A program made the position numbers and the translations under genes. DNA of 20,183 nt from a virus. The notes below the pieces were generated by a model, which saw only the letters and a list, made by a program, of their open reading frames with translations, was not told the origin of the DNA and did no database searches. Shown piece after piece: positions 1-15,006 of this stretch. Each line of letters begins with the position of its first letter. The stretch's first letter is position 1. The stretch is taken from IMG/VR virus record IMGVR_UViG_3300037585_001658, positions 1-20,183 of that record; one strand, 5' to 3'.

Positions 1-102
1 CTTTAGAGTCTGTCCGTTAGCACTAAATGACGCAAGAAGAAACACTCCAAGCATTATTAGAGCGTATACAACTGAAGATAAATCCTTTCTTTCTACCATC
101 AT
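1..102 (-). CDS. Small exported or membrane protein, C-terminus cut by the window edge
   Basis: The first 34 codons are visible on the minus strand, beginning with two consecutive ATG codons at 102-97. The N-terminus has charged residues (MMVERKD) followed by a hydrophobic stretch of about 20 residues ending ASFSANGQ, which reads as a signal peptide with Gln near the mature N-terminus, as is common in Bacteroidota, or as a single membrane anchor. The start overlaps the stop of the upstream gene as ATGA, which supports translational coupling. The rest lies left of the window, so no function can be given. A membrane-anchored lysis protein (for example a spanin) is one possibility but nothing specific supports it. 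Confidence 0.55.
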   Translation of the reverse strand, partial: MMVERKDLSSVVYALIMLGVFLLASFSANGQTLK

Positions 103-248
103 ACCTCGAATCCGAAATTCAAAATCATAAATCTAAATGATTTACCAAAACTTATTTCTAAAACAGTAATAGTGCCGAGTCTAAATGAAAGCTCATACAC
201 TTCTTTTTTGTTGCCAGCGTTCCAGCTGTTTATCCAATCTATCTTCAT
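99..248 (-). CDS. Small hypothetical phage protein (49 aa)
   Basis: A 49-residue ORF starting MKIDWINSWN and ending NFGFEV. Its ATG overlaps the TAA of the upstream gene (TAATG) and its TGA overlaps the ATG of the downstream gene (ATGA), so both junctions have the coupled architecture used throughout this operon. It has a mixed hydrophobic/basic composition with no signal peptide, no cysteines and no recognised domain. It is accepted because of the tight coupling on both sides. Function unknown. Confidence 0.55.
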   Translation of the reverse strand: MKIDWINSWNAGNKKEVYELSFRLGTITVLEISFGKSFRFMILNFGFEV

Positions 249-448
249 TACGCTAAAATTACACGGTTATAAAATTCTAAATCTATATCTTTAATAGGAT
301 TGATAAAGTTAACACGACAATACCTATTAATTTCTTGCCTCTTTGTCTTGCTATTTGTCACGCAGACATTAGCAGCTTGGTATTGAGCATTCTTCGTTAA
401 AAGATTGTCAACACGCTTTTTAGTTGTTTTGTTTGTTTTGTAACTCAT
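248..448 (-). CDS. Small basic hypothetical protein (66 aa)
   Basis: A 66-residue, Lys/Arg/Asn-rich protein starting MSYKTNKTTKKRVDNLL. Its ATG overlaps the TGA stop of the T9SS-sorted protein gene (ATGA) and its TAA overlaps the next start (TAATG). The basic N-terminus and two cysteines are visible, but there is no CxxC zinc motif and no recognisable domain. It belongs to the downstream end of the fibre operon. It could be a small nucleic-acid-associated or virion accessory protein; this is only an inference from charge. Confidence 0.6.
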   Translation of the reverse strand: MSYKTNKTTKKRVDNLLTKNAQYQAANVCVTNSKTKRQEINRYCRVNFINPIKDIDLEFYNRVILA

Positions 449-2655
449 AATTTAATTATTTTTTTAATTGTAGTTCTTTCGTTATACCTAATTGCAACTT
501 GATAGAAACCTTTAGGGAGGTCCTTAAGATCAATTCTTTTTTCTCTTGTTCCAGCTACCACAATCTGTCCTAATGAATTATACACCTCTGTGATTATGTC
601 TAAAGATGTCTGTATGTTTAAAACATCTGTTACTGGATTAGGATATACATTATATACATCGTGTATACTATATACACCAGTAGGCCATCCAGACTCACAA
701 TAATCATAAAGCTCAACACACGCTCCGTCCCACTCAACCTCACAGCAATAAGGATCAATATCAATAATCCAAGCATAGCATGAATCGTTTAGCCAGTAGG
801 GATTCCCAGCACCAGTAACACATCCAGCATCATATAAGCATGCATCTTCATTAGAAGTGTTTGCTAACTCATTGTAATTAAACGCATTAGGGTCCATGCA
901 GTCAACCACTACTTCAACACAAGAATCTTCAAGCTCTGTATTTGCGTCTGGGTTGTAGTTGAAGGCATCTGGATTCATGCATCCGTACACAAAAGAAATA
1001 CAACCACCATTCTCTGTATTTGCTTGAGGATCGTAGTTGAACTGTGTAGGGTCAGTACAACCAAATATTACTGGGATACAATCCGCAGGATCTGTAGCCG
1101 CCGCATTGTAATTGAACGCTGTTGGGTCCTGACAACCCTCTACTTCAAGCTCGTTACATACTCCGTCACTATCATCATCGTTTACGCAAGTGTTGTTGCA
1201 GTCGTAGTACTGAACTGGATAACTGCAGCCAGAATTTGTGTTAGCGCTGATGTTGTAATTACAAGCTGCTTCGTCAGTGCAGCCATATATATAAGGTATA
1301 CAACTATCACCACAAGAGGGGGTAAAGCTGTATGTGCTCCAATTTGGTGCGCTAAATGGCTGTAACGCTTCTTGACCATTATTTAAAAACGGATTACTAC
1401 CTTCAGACAATAAAGTGTCCCCTGCTTCATTAAGAACGTGCACGGAATTATGTAGAGTTTGAAAAGCAAGCTCTTGAGCTGACTGCTGTTGATTGCCAGC
1501 TTGAAAGTAGTATACATCAACCTCCTCATCAGAATCAAGGACGATATTCCAAGATTGGGAAAACTGATTAGGTCCTACAGTAAATAACCACTGCTGATCA
1601 CCCTGTACCATACCTATCTTAGAGTTACCCCATCCATCTGCAGCATCATCTTCTAGAATAATCTGTATACTGCATGGGCTGTTTAAGTCGTTTATGGTTG
1701 CTGTACTGTCATAATTTAAAGCCTCTGAATCAGTGCAGCCCCATGTATGTAATGTCATGCATGTGTCTTGAGCTGTTGCTTCTGGGTTATAATCTACATA
1801 GTCGTCATCCATGCATCCATACACATCGGGTGTAGGAGGACACGGTTCTGGAAAGATAGCTCCCGAATACATTACACCACCTCCAAACTCTTCAAATGCT
1901 AAGTCCTCCAACTCCCAAAGAACGGTGTCGCAAGCAGTGACAACACATGCTCCATCTTCTCCACCTGAAACAAAACCATTAAGACCGTCACCAAACTCAT
2001 CTACTAAAATTAACTCAAAGCCTAAAGAAACGCAAAAGTCATATGTATATGTAACTAGCTGATCACCAAAGTCAAATTCTAAAGGTAGTACTTGGTGGTA
2101 TGGTTCACCAGTAGCTATATTAACTAAAGTAAACCCAGTCTCATTAGGCCACGTATCAAGCGTTAAGCTCATAGAAACAAAAGCTTCAAGTGAGTCGCAA
2201 TTTACAACCTCACAACTGCCGTCATCTTGAGTGGCCCACGGATTGTAATTGTCAGCAATTTCATTAGTACAGCCAAGCAATACAGGTAAGCAAGGAATAA
2301 GTGTAAAAGGTATTGTGTCTGTAGCTGAACTAAACTCATAGTTAGACTCCTCTAATCCACAAGTATTTGTCAATGCAAAAAACCCTTCACCAAACGAACA
2401 GCATATCCCGTCACCAAAAGCATCATATGCAATAAAATTATAATCTCCTGATGGAAGGTATATAGTGTTATTGTGTAATGTGCTGTTTTGATAAGGTGGA
2501 CTTACAGCCACTACTTCCCCGTCATGTATAATCTCCCATGATGTTTCTCCAGCATAGTTGTCTGTTTGCACTGTTACATTTAGCCAGCTTGCATTATCTG
2601 GTTGAGCAAATAAAACATAAGGAATTAAAAACAGAGCGAGTAACATTTTTTTCAT
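445..2655 (-). CDS. Secreted Cys-rich repeat protein with C-terminal T9SS (type A) sorting domain
   Basis: This 736-residue protein starts at the ATG at 2655, because MKKMLLALFLIPYVLFAQ is a clean Sec signal peptide (cleavage before Gln18); the longer frame would need a TTG start. Three divergent beta-rich segments carry acidic DGDG/DGWG-type loops (GDGICC near residue 80, DEFGDGLNG, DDAADGWGNS). Eight repeats of the form GCxDxxAxNYNxxAxxxxxC follow the pattern common in secreted marine Bacteroidota proteins; five are contiguous in the second half. A Cys-rich DPYCCEVEWDGAC segment precedes the last 70 residues (about 667-736), which match the type A T9SS sorting domain: YPNPVTDVLNI, then VYNSLGQ, LPKGFYQVAI and a final KKIIKL. 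It should therefore cross the inner membrane by Sec and the outer membrane by the host T9SS, then be anchored or released. It lies in the tail-fibre operon directly downstream of a fibre gene, with its own TATATTTG box. Confidence 0.9.
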   Translation of the reverse strand: MKKMLLALFLIPYVLFAQPDNASWLNVTVQTDNYAGETSWEIIHDGEVVAVSPPYQNSTLHNNTIYLPSGDYNFIAYDAFGDGICCSFGEGFFALTNTCGLEESNYEFSSATDTIPFTLIPCLPVLLGCTNEIADNYNPWATQDDGSCEVVNCDSLEAFVSMSLTLDTWPNETGFTLVNIATGEPYHQVLPLEFDFGDQLVTYTYDFCVSLGFELILVDEFGDGLNGFVSGGEDGACVVTACDTVLWELEDLAFEEFGGGVMYSGAIFPEPCPPTPDVYGCMDDDYVDYNPEATAQDTCMTLHTWGCTDSEALNYDSTATINDLNSPCSIQIILEDDAADGWGNSKIGMVQGDQQWLFTVGPNQFSQSWNIVLDSDEEVDVYYFQAGNQQQSAQELAFQTLHNSVHVLNEAGDTLLSEGSNPFLNNGQEALQPFSAPNWSTYSFTPSCGDSCIPYIYGCTDEAACNYNISANTNSGCSYPVQYYDCNNTCVNDDDSDGVCNELEVEGCQDPTAFNYNAAATDPADCIPVIFGCTDPTQFNYDPQANTENGGCISFVYGCMNPDAFNYNPDANTELEDSCVEVVVDCMDPNAFNYNELANTSNEDACLYDAGCVTGAGNPYWLNDSCYAWIIDIDPYCCEVEWDGACVELYDYCESGWPTGVYSIHDVYNVYPNPVTDVLNIQTSLDIITEVYNSLGQIVVAGTREKRIDLKDLPKGFYQVAIRYNERTTIKKIIKL
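835..1284 (-). repeat. Five contiguous Cys/NYN repeats within the T9SS protein gene
   Basis: Five consecutive units of about 22-30 codons encode GC(T/Q/M)(D/N)xxAFNYNxxANTxxxxxC (the last begins with DC). Three further, more widely spaced copies lie upstream in the gene, at residues following the first, second and third beta segments. The repeats are conserved as protein but diverged as DNA, so they are old rather than a recent slippage expansion. The two Cys per unit probably form disulfides, which fits an exported location. Confidence 0.85.
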
Positions 2656-2671: not shown

Positions 2672-3412
2672 TTAATCAACGCTATTTATTTTGCCTATAC
2701 TAGCAGTAGCTACAGAATTTACTTTACCTATACTTGCTGCTGCTACGCTGTTAACGTCATGGGTATATCCAGCTGCCGCTACTTCATATTCTATATACGG
2801 ATCTTTGTCTGTGCCTGTGTTGTCAGTAAAATAGGCCCCATAATTTAAAAATCCATTAGAGGTTAGAGCTGAGTTTAAATAATCATTAGTGTAATCCATA
2901 AAACAGATTATCACTACGTTATTATTTTGCATGTCAGCCCTAAGATCAGCAGTTCCAGTAAAATCGTTATAACCAGATGTGCTATAACCAGTGGTGGTTA
3001 TTGCGGCACTATAGTCAGTTGCTAGTCCAGCTAAACTACTGCCAGACGAAAATCCAACTATATTATTCAAATCTGTAGCAGCTAACGCTGTTCCACCATC
3101 TCCACCAAAAGCCGTGCTCTTTACCGCTATAGCACTACCATCATTTGAACTAGTTCCATATATTTTTATAGTAGCAGAACTTACTGTCCCTGTAATACCA
3201 GAAGTATCAAAATACATAAACGCTCTATATACTGCATAAGCACTCCCGCCGCCCCTAGTTGCAGATCTATTAACTCCGAGTGCTGCACCTGATAAAGAGG
3301 AACTGGTGAGAACTGTACCGCCAGAGCCACTGTGATCTCTAGCGTCAGCCCACGAACTTTGACTAGTTATTGAACATGTCCCGTCACCAGTATTTGTGTA
3401 CAAGTCTGACAT
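2672..3412 (-). CDS. Phage fibre/adhesin-type structural protein with KVNSV tail repeats
   Basis: A 246-residue Gly/Ser/Thr/Ala-rich beta protein. The middle (YRAFMYFDTSGITG...SSATIKIYG, about residues 60-86) resembles the DNRLRE-like beta-sandwich modules of surface and carbohydrate-associated proteins. The C-terminus carries an imperfect repeat, VNSVAAASIGK-VNSVATASIGK-INSVD, of a kind seen at the ends of many environmental phage virion proteins. There is no signal peptide. Its ATG overlaps the methyltransferase stop (TAATG). It is most likely a tail fibre, tip or decoration protein used in host-surface recognition. The fold assignment is by eye. Confidence 0.75.
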   Translation of the reverse strand: MSDLYTNTGDGTCSITSQSSWADARDHSGSGGTVLTSSSLSGAALGVNRSATRGGGSAYAVYRAFMYFDTSGITGTVSSATIKIYGTSSNDGSAIAVKSTAFGGDGGTALAATDLNNIVGFSSGSSLAGLATDYSAAITTTGYSTSGYNDFTGTADLRADMQNNNVVIICFMDYTNDYLNSALTSNGFLNYGAYFTDNTGTDKDPYIEYEVAAAGYTHDVNSVAAASIGKVNSVATASIGKINSVD

Positions 3413-3975
3413 TAGAATTGTTTTTTAGGGAGGTGATATGTATTAGATTGAAAATACATATTACTGTCTGGATTAACACTTATCGCTTGATACGTAGTTC
3501 CATTTATATACAAAACATCATCCGTGTCTGTATAGTTATTCCACCACGTAACTCTTGTACCAACTTTTGTAAAATTAGGTAATTCGCTTACAAAGCTTAA
3601 TGCATTATCATCACCCCAAGTATCGTAAAATACTCCGTCATAAGTAGATAACGAATCTTTAACATCATACCAGTCCCCCTCTATTATTGTAACATTAGTC
3701 TTATTAGCAGCCCATGCTTTAGCCTTTTCAATCATCTGCGGGTGGTTTTCTACTATAGTATGAGACGATATAGAGTTAGCTTGAATATACCCAGCAGAGA
3801 TTCCCATACCGAATCCTATCTCTAGTATATCCCCAGCTCCTTCACAAACGTAATCAGCTGAAGCTTTCATAATAGAATCCTCCCAAGACATCATCACTTG
3901 AAACTCTATTCCAAAATCGTCTGTGTAGCACACTTTATCAGATTCAAATACCAGTGTTTGATCTATATAAGCCAT
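3412..3975 (-). CDS. GAMT/RMT2-like class I SAM-dependent methyltransferase
   Basis: This 187-residue protein shows the Rossmann methyltransferase motifs: ILEIGFGMG (50-58, SAM-binding motif I), an acidic residue E76 in TIVENHP at the end of strand 2, IIEGDWYDV (97-105) and GVFYDTWG (114-121). The exact forms, especially EIGFGM and FYDTW, resemble guanidinoacetate N-methyltransferase and the fungal arginine methyltransferase RMT2; D118 aligns by eye with the active-site Asp of GAMT that contacts the guanidinium group. The leading MMSWEDSIMKA also matches the segment before motif I in GAMT. It is shorter than GAMT (about 235 aa). It is coupled by TAATG overlaps to a collagen-like fibre gene upstream and a second fibre gene downstream. 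Modification of a virion protein or a small guanidino compound is inferred, not shown. Confidence 0.8.
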   Translation of the reverse strand: MAYIDQTLVFESDKVCYTDDFGIEFQVMMSWEDSIMKASADYVCEGAGDILEIGFGMGISAGYIQANSISSHTIVENHPQMIEKAKAWAANKTNVTIIEGDWYDVKDSLSTYDGVFYDTWGDDNALSFVSELPNFTKVGTRVTWWNNYTDTDDVLYINGTTYQAISVNPDSNMYFQSNTYHLPKKQF

Positions 3976-5240
3976 TACGCCGTTACTTCTACGAATGCGC
4001 CGTCTGGGTTAAACCAAATCTGTCCGTTAGACGAGTGTAAGCAATACCCTATGACTCTAACTACATTGTTATTACCCGAAGGCGCTATACTTGTAATTCC
4101 ACCAGCAGCTGCCCTTGCAAACATCACATCTCCAAGATTGCCAGAATCGCTGTCGTGAGTTACCATCCCTCTTAATAGCATACCGTCAGTGTCTGAAGCT
4201 GCTCCCAAAGCTATAGCTAAAAGCCCGTCACAAGTAGCAGCTGTACTTGCGTCGGCTTTCTCCCATGTTCCATCAGACTTATAGTGATATAGTTGTCCTA
4301 CGTCCATACTTGTAGTCCCTCCAAAATATACAACATCACCTTGATATTCACCGTCCGTATCTCCCGTGACTCCAAGAAATCTAGTGTCAGCTCTTAGTTT
4401 ACTTGTTACGGTCATACCACCAGATACAGTTACCATGGAATCAGCTCCATTAGCTAGCGTGACATCGACCTCATCTTCTAAGGATCCATCCTCTATAATT
4501 AAACCAGCTTGTGATTCTCCATCATGAGAAGCAACGCTAATAGTTATTTTACCCCCCTCAGCATTATTATCAACCTCTTCTATTTCGCATTTAATAGTAC
4601 CAAACTCTTGGCTGTTACCAGCTCCGTCTTCTCCAAAAAAAGTTATATAACCAAGAGCCTCACCATCCTCAGTATCATCTGAGTCTTTTAGAAACTTTAA
4701 CTCTCCAGCTCTACCAGCATGTGTGTGCGTAGCTTTAATAGTAATCAACGGCTTTGATGCGGTAGAGCTTTCTAAAATTAAATCATCACCGTCCCACGTA
4801 AGATTCGATTCAGCTGTTATAGCGCTAGTTCCAGTGCCAGTAAGAATAGAGTTGTCTGCAAGACTTGTAGCTCCTGTACCACCGTCGTAAACAGCTAAAG
4901 TTCCCGTAATACCTGAAGCTCCTAGATCAACAGCTAATTCTGTAGAATCTATAACTAACCCCCCCCTGAATTTTAAGTCAGCGCTTACTTCTCCGCCAGC
5001 AATATCTATTCCATCTCCTGCTGTTACTGTAGCTCCCGTAGCGCCCGTCGCACCTGTTGCACCTGTAGCTCCTGTTGCTCCAGTATCCCCCTTAGGGCCT
5101 TTGCTTGTTACCGATATTGAAGACGATGCTGGTGGAGTTACAGAAACAGAAGATGAGCTAGAAGAAAAACTAACCGATGTACCTCCAGTAGATGTAGCGG
5201 TAACGCTATTGCCAGTTGTTGTTGTAACGTCTACGCTCAT
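3975..5240 (-). CDS. Collagen-like phage tail fibre protein
   Basis: A 421-residue structural protein. The first 45 residues are a Ser/Thr/Val low-complexity stretch, followed at 48-71 by eight collagen-type Gly-X-Y triplets (GPKGDTGATGAT and so on), which form trimeric rods in phage fibres. A long beta-rich region follows, including GGTGATSLADNSILTGTG, a common fibre motif. The C-terminal third (GDVVYFGG...GQLYHYKSDGTWEKADA...GLLAIALG...MLLRGMVTH...IGYCLHSSNGQIWFNPDGAFVEV) is a head domain of the type found in many marine phage fibres. The stop overlaps the methyltransferase start (TAATG). Role: receptor-binding tail fibre, probably trimeric. Confidence 0.88.
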   Translation of the reverse strand: MSVDVTTTTGNSVTATSTGGTSVSFSSSSSSVSVTPPASSSISVTSKGPKGDTGATGATGATGATGATGATVTAGDGIDIAGGEVSADLKFRGGLVIDSTELAVDLGASGITGTLAVYDGGTGATSLADNSILTGTGTSAITAESNLTWDGDDLILESSTASKPLITIKATHTHAGRAGELKFLKDSDDTEDGEALGYITFFGEDGAGNSQEFGTIKCEIEEVDNNAEGGKITISVASHDGESQAGLIIEDGSLEDEVDVTLANGADSMVTVSGGMTVTSKLRADTRFLGVTGDTDGEYQGDVVYFGGTTSMDVGQLYHYKSDGTWEKADASTAATCDGLLAIALGAASDTDGMLLRGMVTHDSDSGNLGDVMFARAAAGGITSIAPSGNNNVVRVIGYCLHSSNGQIWFNPDGAFVEVTA

Positions 5241-5249
5241 ATGTAAAAA

Positions 5250-5666
5250 TTAAAGAGATTTAGAAACGTCAGAATTAACGGTAAAAGTACCCCTCAGTAT
5301 CGTGGTATGAGCATCAACCCCTCCAGTTGTTGGTTTTATTTGTTGAAGATCATAAACATACCTTCCAGCAGAAATATTCCTCATAGTCGCTGGAGTAGCA
5401 GTAATCGTAACATTACCACTGTCGTCAATAGTAAAATTTTCAAAAACATTGCTAACAGCCTTACCTAGGTTTTTGCTACCCAACACAGGAGTTTGAGCTT
5501 TTTTATCAGCAGACCAAACCTGCATAAGGAATGAGTAATTATCAGTAGATAGCGTAAGGGCCGTCCCAGAAGAATCCTTCAGGGTTAAGGTAAGATCAAA
5601 GCTGTCTCCTTGACGGCAAGTTATATCTAGCCTTTCTGATACATCTAAATTTACTTTACTAGCCAT
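5250..5666 (-). CDS. Beta-rich phage structural protein, BppU-N/Ig-like type (138 aa)
   Basis: A 138-residue protein with the pattern ITCRQGDSFDLTLTLKDSSGTALTL...YSFLMQVW near the N-terminus and ISAGRYVYDLQQIKPTTGG...LRGTFTVNSDVS at the end. This arrangement (a polarised linear term, a GxYxYDLQ strand and a final GTFTV strand) is typical of small baseplate or fibre-attachment domains such as the BppU N-terminal family. It lies between portal and fibre genes and overlaps the portal stop by TAATG. It may connect the fibre to the tail; this is inferred from position and fold impression. Confidence 0.75.
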   Translation of the reverse strand: MASKVNLDVSERLDITCRQGDSFDLTLTLKDSSGTALTLSTDNYSFLMQVWSADKKAQTPVLGSKNLGKAVSNVFENFTIDDSGNVTITATPATMRNISAGRYVYDLQQIKPTTGGVDAHTTILRGTFTVNSDVSKSL

Positions 5667-8131
5667 TATTGTTGTAATATATTTTGAACGGTTTCGTCTA
5701 TTTCTGGTGTTTCACCAATATCTATAGCTTCTGTTATTTCACCACGCTGACCCTTTCTTTGAGAAATTAACTTGCTCTGCTCTGCAGACTGTTTCTTAAC
5801 TCTTGTGTCTTTTCTGTCTTCTTTGAGAACTTCAATCTTTTCCTTAAACTCTTGGTCATCAGTCTTAAAGCCTAAAGTTGCTTGTGCTCTTATCATCTCT
5901 ATCTCCTTCTGCATCTGATGACGAGCTTGAGCAACCTGAACTTCTAATTGAGATTTAAGCTGTAGTTTTTGACCTTCCAATTCAGCTTCCATCTGTAATT
6001 CTTGCTGTCTCGCCTGAGAAGCCGCTTGAGATGCTTGTTGAGCCTGTTGAGCTTGCATCTCAGAGTTTTGTAAAGCCTGAACCTGCATCTTATCCATTCT
6101 TTTCTTTCGGCGAAGAATAAGAAGTCTTTCAGCTTGATTAACATCTTTAAGGTTTCTTATAGCTATAGCATCCTCTAGGTCTATTTGCTGCTGTTGAATT
6201 GCCATTTGTATGTTCTGCTCAAGAAAAGCTCTCTCAGCGTCCTCCATCTCCTTCTGTACAGAAACTCCAAAATTAAACATAGGTAAGTCATTAAAAGAAG
6301 TTAAAACCTCCATATTAGATTCGCCTATTGCGTTCTGATATATACCCATAAGAACAGACTCTGGTGGAATAATCTGCAAACACTTAACTACATCTTCACA
6401 AACTTTCTTGAACAATATCATAGCAGCGTTTGTGATATCATATATAGCATTGTTTCCAGCTGCTATAGCTTGCTGCTGAACTCCAACCAAAGCATCTCCT
6501 TTAGGAGTCGAAGCATCCATAGCTTCGTTAATGCCTGTTGTGTCTCTTATTAGTCTTAAGTAATGATTGTATATATTTATAAGCTCATTGATGTTTCTTA
6601 TACTATTACCAATCTCTCTAATTGGTGGGTTCTGATGACCTCCCTCTGGGTTTTTAGACCTGTAGTAGAAAACTCCTGTTTGCTCGTAAATATCATGAAG
6701 CTCTAGTGGCTGAAGTTCTCCGCCTTTTCCAAGCTGTACATTTTCTAACCCCTCTATATCAATCATTAACCCATCTGGCTTTGCTTTAGCGATGGCCTGC
6801 TGGATTTTCAAATGGGTGATCTGGAGCATATCAGCAAATCCAATACAACTATCAACCATAGACTTAGGCATCATATTCCTGAAGTTGGTAGCAACAACAG
6901 AATAGCCCATACGAGTTCGCCCTATATCATGAATATTTCTAGGGACGTTTGTTTTTAAACCGTAATTAAAAATATGCTTAGTTCCAAGAATATATAAACC
7001 TCCATAAACAGTAACTAAATCCATTCTATGAGGCTTGCGCTCAAATACACCACCACTCTTCTCTTTGTAATTAAAGCCCTCATAAAAAAAGTTTTTATTA
7101 CCGTGTCTATTCTCTTTTTCTTCAAAGTGCATGCAGTCTACAGACATAAACTCAAAGTCTAATAAATCTACTGAATAGTTATCATAGCCATAAATGTTTT
7201 TATTCAATGAGTTGTCGTACTTAGTCATTGAAAATTTAGAGGTGTCGTGAGACTTAGATTTAGCAGAAGAGGTTGCAATTTGTTGATATTCTTCTTCTGT
7301 AAAAGAATCACCCGCTAATCGCTTAAGTTCCTGAATAGTTATGCTTTTCACATGGCCAGCATAAACTAAATCATCAAAATTAGGGTTTTCAGTTTGACTG
7401 TGTATAAAAGAACAAGGGTCAACATAGTCTGTCTTTATCCCATAACTAGGATCATTTGTGCGTCTTACAACACACATACCTAAAGCAACCAAATCATTTA
7501 CGCACCTTCTATACGTCCCATCATTAAAGTCGTTCCACTCTAAGGTCATGTTCGTACCTATCTGAGCTGCTATTTCAGCATCAGTCTTAATGTTGGTGTC
7601 TAGGAATATTTCAGCCTCCTCCAAAGTATCTGGCAGCAATTCTGGATCTTGATCTAAAACAAGTCCTTGAGTGTCAGCTTTAAGTTGCATTAATTGCTCT
7701 TTAAGCTCAACTTGAATTTTTATTCTTTTTTTCTGCTTATTCTTTTCGGAAGAAGACAGGGGATCTACAGCCTCTAAATTTGGATACGGCTCCCTAGATA
7801 AAATCTTATTTGAAACTATTCTAGCAAACTTCGGTAAAACTGGGACTGGAGTATAGTCTAAGTTTACAAGACTACCATCGGCATTATTAGGATCTAGATT
7901 CGTTAAAATCTGTTTGTATAAATTTGTGTTCTGAGTACCATTTGCATAATCTCTATTTCTTTCAAAAACATGATTACGTTTGTAATACAGAGATCCTGCA
8001 TCCTGCACTTTTCCCCACTGGGATTCAATAGCCTTAGCATACTTTAACCCATAGGCTTTACTTTCTTTTATCTGCTGAGAGGCTAAAGGATCTGGAAAGC
8101 TGCCTGAACTTTTATTATTGCTGTTGTACAT
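5666..8131 (-). CDS. Phage portal protein
   Basis: An 821-residue protein directly downstream of the terminase. It begins with a helical region (LKYAKAIESQWGKV...KRNHVFERNRDYANGTQ, about 28-66), then a clip/wing-type region with YDNYSVDLLDFEFMSVDCMHFEE, GGLYILGTKHIFNYG and SVVATNFRNMMPKSMVDSCIGFADMLQ, and a stem/crown part with LIRDTTGINEAMDASTPKGDALVGVQQQAI, a typical portal motif. The last 180 or so residues are a Gln/Glu/Ala/Lys-rich coiled coil, long for a portal and perhaps forming a barrel. It should form the dodecameric DNA portal at the capsid vertex and dock the terminase. A TATATTTG box lies 19 bases before the ATG. Family subtype (crAss-like or P22-like) is uncertain. Confidence 0.88.
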   Translation of the reverse strand: MYNSNNKSSGSFPDPLASQQIKESKAYGLKYAKAIESQWGKVQDAGSLYYKRNHVFERNRDYANGTQNTNLYKQILTNLDPNNADGSLVNLDYTPVPVLPKFARIVSNKILSREPYPNLEAVDPLSSSEKNKQKKRIKIQVELKEQLMQLKADTQGLVLDQDPELLPDTLEEAEIFLDTNIKTDAEIAAQIGTNMTLEWNDFNDGTYRRCVNDLVALGMCVVRRTNDPSYGIKTDYVDPCSFIHSQTENPNFDDLVYAGHVKSITIQELKRLAGDSFTEEEYQQIATSSAKSKSHDTSKFSMTKYDNSLNKNIYGYDNYSVDLLDFEFMSVDCMHFEEKENRHGNKNFFYEGFNYKEKSGGVFERKPHRMDLVTVYGGLYILGTKHIFNYGLKTNVPRNIHDIGRTRMGYSVVATNFRNMMPKSMVDSCIGFADMLQITHLKIQQAIAKAKPDGLMIDIEGLENVQLGKGGELQPLELHDIYEQTGVFYYRSKNPEGGHQNPPIREIGNSIRNINELINIYNHYLRLIRDTTGINEAMDASTPKGDALVGVQQQAIAAGNNAIYDITNAAMILFKKVCEDVVKCLQIIPPESVLMGIYQNAIGESNMEVLTSFNDLPMFNFGVSVQKEMEDAERAFLEQNIQMAIQQQQIDLEDAIAIRNLKDVNQAERLLILRRKKRMDKMQVQALQNSEMQAQQAQQASQAASQARQQELQMEAELEGQKLQLKSQLEVQVAQARHQMQKEIEMIRAQATLGFKTDDQEFKEKIEVLKEDRKDTRVKKQSAEQSKLISQRKGQRGEITEAIDIGETPEIDETVQNILQQ

Positions 8132-8173: not shown

Positions 8174-10297
8174 TTAAGATATAGGCTTATATCTCCTAAA
8201 AAACTTCTTTTCGGTAAAATCAGATTGCTTCTTTTTAAGCTTGGCTTTTTGGGCCGCCAATAAAGCAAGACCAGAGCTTATAGTAAGGTCAAATTTAGTT
8301 CTGTTGTTTATATTAAAACCAATCCAATCCTCTAAAGTATTGTTAAAATACATTGTGCCAACTTCTCCAGACTCTCTGTGCACGCCAACATGGTTATGAA
8401 TATACGCTTCAATAGCATGTGCGTGAGCTTGAATAACGTCTTGTGAGTTTGAAGGTATACCTTTAGTCTTAACATTAACCTTAGAGCTAGAAGAATTTAG
8501 GTGAGCTGGCCTACTCATTAAGTATCCATCATAACCTCTTGATTCAAAGTGCCTTGCAATACCGTACTTATTGTTTTCAATTAATATAGAGTAGCCGTAA
8601 AACACAGCCGCCATAAGAACGTCTTCATAAAAGATTTTAGCTAAAGGTGGGCGTGACGCATATTCTAACACAAACATGTTAGATGGGTGCTCCATGTGAA
8701 ACTTATTATAAAGATGCAAAGCCCCTTTAGATCCTCGACCATCTACAGTAGCGTCAAGATCATAAGAGTCGACTCCACCAACACCTAGCTCTGCATTGGC
8801 TGGTAAAAGCTTTCCCCTTTCAGTTATTTTTTTATTTCTTAATTCTGGTGGGGGCATCCAAGCTACATTAAACCTCCCTTGAGGGTCTGGCTTAAACACA
8901 ACCTCAGTATCTTTTTGACCATTCTTCCATACGAAATTCCCAACAACTATAGGATTTGGGAAAAGCTCATCATTGTGGTGGATTTGCTCATATATCCTTC
9001 CTATATTAAACAGACTACCATCTATGCTGTCTCTAAAAGCTTCGTCCGTAGTAAAAGGGAACTGTCTTGTCACCTCGTTTAATTCAGAAGGATCGTCCTT
9101 TAAGCTTTCCCTTTCGTTTCTTAAATACGATTTTGCACCAAAAATTACATCTTCTCCATCTAAGCCGTCTACGACTTTCAAGGGGTCCTCTATAACTGGA
9201 TTGCCATATTTGTCAAAAAACCCTTCTAAGGATTCATATGCAGGAATAAACAATCTATACAATCCCGTTCTAGTTCTACCATTCGCATTCCTCTCTGTCG
9301 GATCCGAATCCTTCCAAAGCTCCTTGTACTGTTTTCCACCTTTGTCCATTGGATTTACCGTGCTTCCCACCAGAGCTTTTCCTACGATTCTTCTTCCCAC
9401 TATTAGGCATGTTCTCTGAATCCTCCATGCGTCTCTTATGTCTGTAGGTCTTTCCCATTTTCCTGCTTCGTCTAAATACAACAAGTGTAGTTTCTCACCG
9501 TCATATGCGTTGTTAGTTGTGTTTTTCCAATTAATAACCGTATTAAGAGCTTCACCTGTTTGAGATGTTTTATTGTTTTTAGTGATCCTCTTTGAAGGTT
9601 CTCTAAAAGCTAGCTCCATACGTGGATTGGTTGTACCGTCTTGTATAGGTTTAAAGAAGAATGGGTAGTTTCTAAACATATACACCACCTTCTTCATAAA
9701 TATGTTTTCTTGAGCGTCTTTACCTGTCTTGGACTGTATCCCCATAAGCTTATCCTTAACCTGTGTAGCTTCATCAACAAGTACAGCAGAACAAATATTG
9801 GTGTACCCAGAACGACGGCACTTAGTATAAAGCTGACCAATACAACGAGGGTCAGCCTCGCAAGCAGCCATATGTAAAAATATTTCACGCTGAAAGTTAA
9901 GAAAATATGGGTAGCCAATATCCAGTTTGGTCCACTGTAGCATCATATAATGCCGCCCCGTAATATATGTAGGTGTACCGTTGTTATAAAACCAAAAGCC
10001 CTCACGCCTACGCCGAAACTCCTCTTCGACATATGGACGAAACTTTTCTCTAAACTGCCTTGGCATTTCTGCCCACTCATCCATAGATTTAATACGAGAC
10101 AATTCCTTGGGCATAGGTGATCTTTCCCACATCTGCAAAGAGTCTGTCTTCTTATATCCGACAATGTTTTTCTTCGGCGGCCTTTTAGGAAGGCAAATGA
10201 GTAACCCACCGAGTTCGGTAATTTCACCCTCCGTACCGTTGGGGCAAATCTTAATAACAGGTTCATTATACTCCTCTAAATTTAATAATACAGACAT
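8174..10297 (-). CDS. terL: Terminase large subunit (packaging ATPase/nuclease)
   Basis: A 707-residue protein that packages DNA into the procapsid. The ATPase half shows an adenine-site-like FYNNGTPTYITGRHY...PYFLNFQRE (about 103-138), a Walker A region reduced to LYTKCRRSGYTN (157-167) without the classical GKS/T, a clear Walker B LHLLYLDEAGKWE (270-282) and a coupling motif GSTVNP (311-316). The nuclease half shows the RNase H-like acidic residues in GGVDSYD (D510), ILIENNKYG (E575) and NRTKFD (D670). The C-terminus is basic. The ATG overlaps the stop of the zinc-ribbon gene upstream (TAATG) and the portal follows after 42 bp. The overall shape resembles terminases of Bacteroidota crAss-like podophages. 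No small terminase subunit is recognised with certainty. Confidence 0.93.
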   Translation of the reverse strand: MSVLLNLEEYNEPVIKICPNGTEGEITELGGLLICLPKRPPKKNIVGYKKTDSLQMWERSPMPKELSRIKSMDEWAEMPRQFREKFRPYVEEEFRRRREGFWFYNNGTPTYITGRHYMMLQWTKLDIGYPYFLNFQREIFLHMAACEADPRCIGQLYTKCRRSGYTNICSAVLVDEATQVKDKLMGIQSKTGKDAQENIFMKKVVYMFRNYPFFFKPIQDGTTNPRMELAFREPSKRITKNNKTSQTGEALNTVINWKNTTNNAYDGEKLHLLYLDEAGKWERPTDIRDAWRIQRTCLIVGRRIVGKALVGSTVNPMDKGGKQYKELWKDSDPTERNANGRTRTGLYRLFIPAYESLEGFFDKYGNPVIEDPLKVVDGLDGEDVIFGAKSYLRNERESLKDDPSELNEVTRQFPFTTDEAFRDSIDGSLFNIGRIYEQIHHNDELFPNPIVVGNFVWKNGQKDTEVVFKPDPQGRFNVAWMPPPELRNKKITERGKLLPANAELGVGGVDSYDLDATVDGRGSKGALHLYNKFHMEHPSNMFVLEYASRPPLAKIFYEDVLMAAVFYGYSILIENNKYGIARHFESRGYDGYLMSRPAHLNSSSSKVNVKTKGIPSNSQDVIQAHAHAIEAYIHNHVGVHRESGEVGTMYFNNTLEDWIGFNINNRTKFDLTISSGLALLAAQKAKLKKKQSDFTEKKFFRRYKPIS

Positions 10298-14631: not shown

Positions 14632-15006
14632 ATGAAGAATTTATTCCTACTTGTAAGCTTTGTTCTTACATCTGTTGCAGTAAACGCACAAAAAACTGCA
14701 TGCTCTGTTGATTTTTATGTAACTCCACTAAACTGGGAAGAAGATGTATTCCAGTATGGAATGGACATGGTAGTAGATGGAATTACATTAGAAGCTATAA
14801 AACCTTGGGATACCGAAGCAATATTTAACCCAATAAACTTAAGGTCGGGAGATACGCAATACATTATTAATGCGATTCAAAACGATGTAATAGTTGATCA
14901 ATACACTATTACAGCTGTAAAAACAGGAAAGGGTTGTTTAATTGAGTTTACACCAGATATAACTGTAGGTAATAAAACTCAACTTAAAATTAAAGCTAGA
15001 TTATAA
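14632..15006 (+). CDS. Small exported protein under its own promoter (moron candidate)
   Basis: A 124-residue protein beginning MKNLFLLVSFVLTSVAVNAQK, a textbook Sec signal peptide with predicted cleavage before Gln20, the usual Bacteroidota form. The mature 105 residues look all-beta (CSVDFYVTPLNWEEDVFQYGMDMVVDGITLEAI...RSGDTQYIINAIQND...GCLIEFTPDITVGNKTQLKIKARL) with two cysteines that could pair. There is no lipobox, T9SS domain or membrane segment, so it should be periplasmic. It is the only gene in this stretch on the plus strand besides the winged-helix gene, has its own promoter-like element, and its end overlaps the opposite gene by six bases. This is how phage morons that alter the host envelope or block superinfection are usually arranged; the function is unknown. 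Confidence 0.8.
   Translation: MKNLFLLVSFVLTSVAVNAQKTACSVDFYVTPLNWEEDVFQYGMDMVVDGITLEAIKPWDTEAIFNPINLRSGDTQYIINAIQNDVIVDQYTITAVKTGKGCLIEFTPDITVGNKTQLKIKARL

Follow-up and report, generated by a model that had tools for sequence, protein, structure and literature searches.

Why should a phage carry, next to its fibre genes, a gene whose product appears built to leave the cell through the secretion machinery of its host? The question is raised by a 20,183-base fragment from IMG/VR (hereafter the window, meaning the whole stretch that was analysed), in which one gene, here termed T, had been described from its letters alone. That sequence-only reading assigned to the product a Sec signal peptide, eight Cys/NYN repeats and a type A C-terminal sorting domain (CTD) of the type IX secretion system (T9SS), and regarded the gene as a fibre-cluster member that is out of place. 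Here we report that all three sequence features are confirmed, on the minus strand (a point previously unstated), and that T belongs to a cassette of envelope genes that recurs in a large number of phages. We describe T and its sorting domain, the predicted outer-membrane barrel c2 with which it is paired and the two small genes, c3 and c4, that usually accompany them, and discuss the role that such a cassette may play on the surface of the infected cell.

Phage neighbourhood, host and distribution

The terminase, portal, BppU-like and fibre-type genes all lie upstream of T on the same strand (Table 1), and the plus strand over 445-2655 is full of stops when read for open reading frames (ORFs). 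The nearest fibre-type gene ends 16 bases upstream of T and lies outside the cassette. The neighbourhood is thus that of a phage, as proposed, with one qualification: T is no lone fibre gene and instead opens an envelope cassette located beyond the fibre genes. The possibility that the gene is a chimera or an assembly artefact had also been raised, together with a search for the same gene in the same position elsewhere, and is ruled out by the recurrence of the same terminase/portal/BppU-like junction in dozens of independent contigs. The methyltransferase-like gene of the fibre cluster adjoins collagen-like and CBM96-like genes in four other loci as well (L002, L009, L012 and L053; handles of this form denote individual loci).

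Table 1. Features of the window around T, with their positions, strand and the evidence for each
Feature	Position	Strand	Evidence or remark
Start of c2, outer-membrane beta-barrel gene (first 34 codons, including signal peptide)	102..1	minus	runs off the window
49-aa ORF of family c23, lying between T and c2	98..247	minus	sequence; family in 9 loci
Small ORF, 66 aa, overlapping the T stop codon	248..448	minus	homologues after T in some loci
T, T9SS substrate gene, 736 aa	445..2655	minus	signal peptide, CTD profiles, model, homologues
T type A T9SS sorting domain, residues 669-736	448..651	minus	TIGR04183, PF18962, fold match
T Sec signal peptide, residues 1-17	2605..2655	minus	sequence, homologue conservation, crude rule
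Fibre-type gene, weak CBM96 similarity	2672..3412	minus	PF24517 1.2e-4, below gathering score
Methyltransferase-like gene in fibre cluster	3412..3975	minus	PF13649 2.6e-6
Collagen-like fibre gene	3975..5240	minus	GAT repeats; phrog_10972 tail fiber, weak, 0.008
BppU-like / fibre-assembly gene	5250..5666	minus	phrog_1084 4.7e-15, phrog_3304 4.9e-5
Portal gene	5666..8131	minus	phrog_6547 7e-196
Terminase large subunit gene	8174..10297	minus	phrog_6681 8e-206

The host of the window phage is very probably a flavobacterium, because the relatives of its portal in deposited phages (about 30% identity) come from phages of Flavobacterium, Cellulophaga, Tenacibaculum and Maribacter, all Flavobacteriia, with the single exception of an uncultured record. 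Flavobacteriia are a group that possesses the T9SS. The hosts of the cassette-bearing phages at large are Bacteroidota, probably marine flavobacteria.

A search of IMG/VR with the window protein recovered 62 loci with relatives of T, and a profile search recovered at least 541 stretches that encode them. T is absent from the INPHARED records, no cultured phage was found with T or c2, and a search with the CTD alone gave nothing beyond weak matches in uncultured records and unrelated Bacillus phage genes. Among about 85,000 species genomes, cellular similarity to T is confined to the repeats or the tail and no close orthologue was found, which disfavours the earlier suggestion that T might be a recently captured host adhesin.

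A separate ORF of 124 aa at 14632-15006 of the window, on the plus strand and thus opposite to its neighbours, has a predicted signal peptide of its own (MKNLFLLVSFVLTSVAVNAQ) with Gln at +1. It had no family match in profile searches of NCBIfam, Pfam and PHROG, and is possibly another exported phage protein.

Architecture of T

The domain order of T is a signal peptide, three beta domains, eight Cys/NYN repeats, a helical Cys mini-domain and the type A CTD. The signal peptide (MKKMLLALFLIPYVLFA, followed by Q) is predicted to be cleaved before Gln18 (..VLFA/QPDN), and Gln at +1 fits the Q-rule for Bacteroidetes signal peptides (PMC5837995); a motif of small residue(s) and Gln occupies the cleavage site in 30 of 30 aligned complete homologues. 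A crude rule assigns a signal peptide to 78% of the T proteins, 90% of those of c2 and 88% of those of c3, compared to 4% of other ORFs. The mature protein of 719 aa contains 113 acidic (D/E) and 11 basic (K/R) residues together with 37 cysteines, none of which lies in the CTD (the last 68 residues), and its Cys-rich body is suited to an oxidising compartment. Six repeats match the strict pattern GC...N[YF][ND], and their number becomes eight once a DYN variant near residue 280 and a DC variant near 585 are counted, while a D-x-x-[GA]-D-G motif is present in each of the three beta domains. The Cys/NYN repeat is also found in a 'virion structural protein' of Synechococcus phage S-CAM3 (NC_031906, about 36.8 kb) and in a 1532-aa phage protein that has no signal peptide (L052:506-5104), and therefore does not by itself imply export.

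An AlphaFold2 model of T, computed with 31 homologues, reaches a mean pLDDT of 73 with a pTM of 0.28, and the arrangement of the domains is therefore not given by the model. A fold search with the whole model returned no trustworthy match beyond the CTD (TM scores < 0.2); likewise, Pfam and NCBIfam recognise the CTD alone, and no enzyme, toxin, known adhesin or PA14 domain was found with them. Homologues vary in length from about 610 to 1400 aa. The gene is under purifying selection (median dN/dS 0.076), which is relaxed in the signal peptide (0.44) and the CTD (0.22) relative to the body (0.05), as is expected of targeting sequences. The Bacteroidota -7 box (TAnnTTTG) was considered as a further signal before T, where the window has TATATTTG, and was rejected, the box preceding 14% of the homologues and 9% of other genes.

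A type A sorting domain and an alternative tail

Judged by sequence profiles and predicted fold, the C-terminus of T is a genuine type A T9SS CTD, far beyond a chance match. The profile comparison of the last residues that the sequence-only reading had called for places it above the cut-offs of both models: TIGR04183 matches at the very C-terminus with 1.4e-10 and 41 bits (curated cut-off 23), and PF18962 with 3.5e-12 and 46.9 bits (cut-off 27). In the AlphaFold model the region 668-735 forms seven strands of a C-terminal Ig-like beta-sandwich with a pLDDT of about 78-89. Its best confident structure match is the CTD of NucA in a T9SS complex (8glk_D; TM 0.76, rmsd 2.3 A, 31% identity); the CTD of mirolase (8qb1_A) is matched as well, and CTD-bearing chains were also recovered when the PDB was searched with T by sequence profile. 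TIGR04183 matches 88 of 98 distinct phage T C-termini, and where phage records were searched whole it matches exactly once in each of 35 out of 49; the other 14, without a match, belong largely to short-tail lineages.

In the remaining ten of the 98 C-termini the place of the type A CTD is taken by another tail, about 42 aa long (..VTDILGRPTKIIKNKLLFFIYNDGSVEKK), which carries the motif TD-[IL]-LGR ... LF-x-IY-[SD]-DG-[ST]-x-EK and is missed by TIGR04183. It occurs in the T proteins of L049-L063 and, on the host side (loci L149-L176), in 112 of 199 sampled Flavobacteriales genomes; in the host loci read it ends no more than five residues from the stop codon, mostly on signal-peptide proteins of many sizes. 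Its derivation as a shortened type A CTD is unsupported by profile comparison (hhalign probability 1%, E 0.056), and it is therefore treated as a separate, unlisted host-type tail. From its sequence and distribution it looks like a second host-type tail, perhaps a sorting or anchoring signal, that is used by one phage group.

Linkage of T to a predicted outer-membrane barrel

Seen from T, c2 lies within 3 kb in 78 of 80 loci, and both exceptions are cut by contig ends. Loci found by c2 contained T in 76 out of 76 cases, a set that is biased to close c2 relatives (the best 80 were kept) and overlaps in part of its contigs with the first T set. The linkage held despite this bias when a distant c2 served as the query: T was present in 77 of 79 c2 loci, a count that includes a few fragmentary T matches where contigs end and a weak one in L267 that lacks a CTD, and two loci had no T nearby. 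Where T and c2 are direct neighbours, 45 of 52 pairs share a 4-nt overlap of their reading frames, and the same overlap is found in 54 loci of the second set, which suggests that the two genes are translationally coupled. In the window they are separated by two small ORFs, and in some lineages T stands several genes away from c2. The start of c2 in the window is near-identical to that in L004, and the 66-aa ORF has counterparts of 72-98% identity in L002, L004, L010, L013, L034-L037, L046 and L047.

According to the gene maps, c3 and c4 usually accompany T and c2. The core genes beside the cassette vary: some of the phages have the phrog_6547 portal, others are larger and carry genes for ribonucleotide reductase and of ATPase/helicase type, and others again encode a protein of 2,500-3,000 aa containing phrog_586. 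A correlation between the T and c2 tree distances (r 0.63) was set aside, being confounded by shared descent. Three loci (L104, L110 and L117) hold a second gene between T and c2 that encodes a signal peptide and a type A-like CTD on a different body (411-521 aa); in L117 (8457-10022) it has 4-nt overlaps on both sides.

The c2 protein, about 350 aa long, has Leu, Phe or Tyr as its last residue, and a lipobox-like Cys is present in the signal peptide of 8 of 30 aligned members. In its model, which is of moderate confidence (mean pLDDT 70), about 12 strands form a beta-barrel. Compared to the PDB, the model gives 105 matches at E<=0.001, those listed being outer-membrane barrels or related outer-membrane proteins, with NanC, EstA, KdgM and FapF as the best fold matches; by sequence no relation to solved proteins was found. 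Membership of c2 in PorP/SprF or PorV was considered, and neither Pfam nor NCBIfam gave a match, even a weak one. The family has at least 595 viral members, and c2 was found in none of 399 sampled Flavobacteriales genomes in a search run without a positive control. A signal peptide is also predicted for the c3 protein (about 112 aa, for example L008:13744-14082), which resembles thioredoxin weakly: the best match is at 4.4e-6, and of two members tested one exceeds the Pfam cut-off. It lacks the catalytic CxxC, the W-C-x-x-C site reading [WF]-N-x-x-N, and one other Cys is nearly invariant. The highly conserved c4 (94 aa, for example L006:12864-13148) combines a single membrane segment with a tail that resembles a coiled coil, and has no match among known families and no similarity to holins or spanins. 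All three partners are under purifying selection, with median dN/dS values of 0.05 (c2), 0.10 (c3) and 0.10 (c4).

Comparison with known systems

Type A substrates such as RgpB, mirolase and Flavobacterium johnsoniae NucA share with T a Sec signal peptide and a type A CTD of the same fold. T differs from them in being encoded by a phage, in its late-gene context and in its phage barrel partner, and its secretion is predicted. Substrate genes that are followed by a barrel gene are known from F. johnsoniae and P. gingivalis, where in SprB/SprF and PG1035/PorP the barrel serves its substrate as shuttle or anchor (PMC12618676, PMC9143113). T is likewise followed by an outer-membrane barrel gene, directly in many loci; however, the known pairs have type B CTDs (TIGR04131) and 14-stranded PorP/SprF barrels of FadL type, whereas T is type A and c2 gives no match to that family. 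The T-c2 pair can therefore be likened to them by analogy at most and is not counted among them.

The sequence-only reading had seen in a phage-exploited T9SS a new type of host-surface remodelling. Use of the T9SS alone was described earlier: three variable T9SS-tagged genes (endoglucanase, GH39 and PA14) were found in one phage population, Cryophage, and called a unique occurrence (PMC7468147), and T9SS sorting domains have been noted in BACON-bearing gut phages (PMC6949934). Like the Cryophage cargo, T is a phage gene with a type A sorting domain that is presumed to hijack the host T9SS; unlike it, T is one conserved, enzyme-free family, present in hundreds of phages and accompanied by a partner that looks obligate. 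The gut phage genes, which also have T9SS sorting domains near structural genes, differ from T in their BACON domains, and no barrel partner has been described for them (PMC6949934). For the use of the T9SS by itself, the earlier claim therefore goes too far. Compared to the openly licensed, non-preprint literature, the single conserved T family, its near-obligate pairing with an unlisted barrel and the varied core genes beside it appear to be new. In a passage on Porphyromonas gingivalis phages, proteins with Q-rule signal peptides adapted to Sec and signal peptidase I (SPI) are proposed as outer-membrane modifiers; they resemble T in fitting the Bacteroidetes Sec/SPI route and differ from it in that this passage mentions no T9SS domain (PMC10367356).

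A model for T and c2

On balance we favour, as the best explanation of the whole, that T is a surface protein of the infected cell and that a T-c2 layer remodels the host surface. Its parts are more secure: the export of T to the surface via the host T9SS is highly likely, and it is likely that T and c2 act together. Export by Sec and the host T9SS had already been proposed and is strongly supported by sequence, predicted structure and conservation. Of the refuting outcomes named beforehand, those open to computation did not occur: the profile match is strong, and many independent contigs have the gene at this position. The notion of an isolated oddity gives way to a conserved pair. From the features, predicted folds, linkage and purifying selection reported above we infer the dependence on T9SS, the contact between T and c2, the timing and the purpose in the following scheme.

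Expression of T would probably coincide with that of the late genes; the protein would be exported by Sec and cut by signal peptidase I, exposing Gln. It would fold in the periplasm, where its 37 cysteines are probably disulfide-bonded, and the host T9SS would carry it across the outer membrane via the type A CTD. There it would be displayed near c2, which by analogy with SprB/SprF is probably its partner, anchor or docking site, while c3 and c4 may help folding or envelope insertion; for c3, this could mean assisting the Cys-rich T to fold. The known shuttle of type A CTDs is the host PorV; a dedicated barrel is therefore not strictly needed, and this counts against the explanation that pairs T with c2. 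Further points against it are that c2 matches none of the known T9SS barrel families and is modelled, at moderate confidence, with about 12 strands instead of 14, that T stands apart from c2 in some lineages and is missing near it in two loci, that neither gene was found in a cultured phage, that a cyanophage virion protein shares the Cys/NYN repeats, and that c2 is represented in the window by its first 34 codons.

The T-c2 layer would block further phage adsorption, and would thereby exclude superinfection or keep progeny from being lost to debris and to cells already doomed. Phage proteins placed in the host outer membrane include lambda Lom, the PA-2 porin Lc and the T5 lipoprotein Llp; PA-2 Lc and T5 Llp block superinfection, and to our knowledge none of the three involves a T9SS substrate. 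SprB and RemA, two adhesins exported by the T9SS, have been suggested as phage receptors (PMC13288928). Because T9SS adhesins are suggested as receptors and phage outer-membrane proteins elsewhere block receptors, we tentatively rank superinfection or adsorption exclusion first among the purposes, as the likeliest of them; a role in egress is ranked second because endolysin genes adjoin the cassette in some lineages. More generally, T and its partners may form a mobile and widespread two-part surface system, a generalisation that we put forward with reserve, in which a substrate travels via the host T9SS to a barrel that receives or anchors it, aided by a thioredoxin-like helper, and excludes rivals or protects progeny.

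Alternative explanations

The same genes could form an egress or lysis cassette, in which T, c2, c3 and c4 loosen or break the outer membrane late in infection, replacing spanins or acting beside them. The neighbourhood offers some encouragement, with an endolysin/amidase gene directly after c3 in L033, L040 and L043, an endolysin-type peptidase (c24) near T in L049, L058, L061 and L063, and a membrane segment and coiled coil in c4. T, being large, disulfide-rich and tagged for the T9SS, would, however, be an odd lysis factor, no endolysin adjoins the cassette in the lineage of the window, and c4 is without similarity to holins or spanins; we consider a lytic function rather unlikely. It is also unlikely that T is a released or displayed effector, by which infected cells are made to adhere to their neighbours or to particles, or by which competitors are hit, instead of phages being blocked. 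The near-obligate barrel partner would be left unexplained, and Pfam and NCBIfam recognise in T neither an enzyme or toxin nor an adhesin domain of a known kind, although the protein is long, repeat-rich and variable in length, and inter-strain competition was proposed for the Cryophage T9SS cargo by its authors (PMC7468147).

That T is a virion component, structural or receptor-binding, with a signal peptide and CTD that are vestigial or reused, or that it coats virions after lysis, would suit its position between fibre genes and other late genes and the occurrence of Cys/NYN repeats in the S-CAM3 'virion structural protein' and the signal-peptide-free L052 protein. We hold this to be very unlikely: hundreds of homologues keep the signal peptide and the sorting tail, which is even swapped for another host-type tail; virions assemble in the cytoplasm, so a Sec-exported protein cannot join them; and T is linked to the barrel gene, not to one tail module. 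Host genomes are rich in CTD genes (one Flavobacteriales MAG has 71 matches), which would suit a chimeric assembly or the passive capture of a host adhesin that plays no part in the phage. Such an origin is extremely improbable given the shared junction, the purifying selection on T, the lack of a close cellular orthologue among the species genomes searched and the count of zero c2 genes in the Flavobacteriales sample, the last with the reservation on its control made above.

Implications for phages of Bacteroidota

If T and c2 do remodel the surface of the infected cell, many phages of Bacteroidota, a major marine phylum, use the T9SS to redecorate the cell they occupy and not for entry. A phage substrate that shares its exit with the adhesins proposed as receptors would then constitute a testable route of superinfection exclusion. 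In addition, c2 represents an undescribed family of outer-membrane barrels, and the alternative tail is a candidate for a second host sorting signal.
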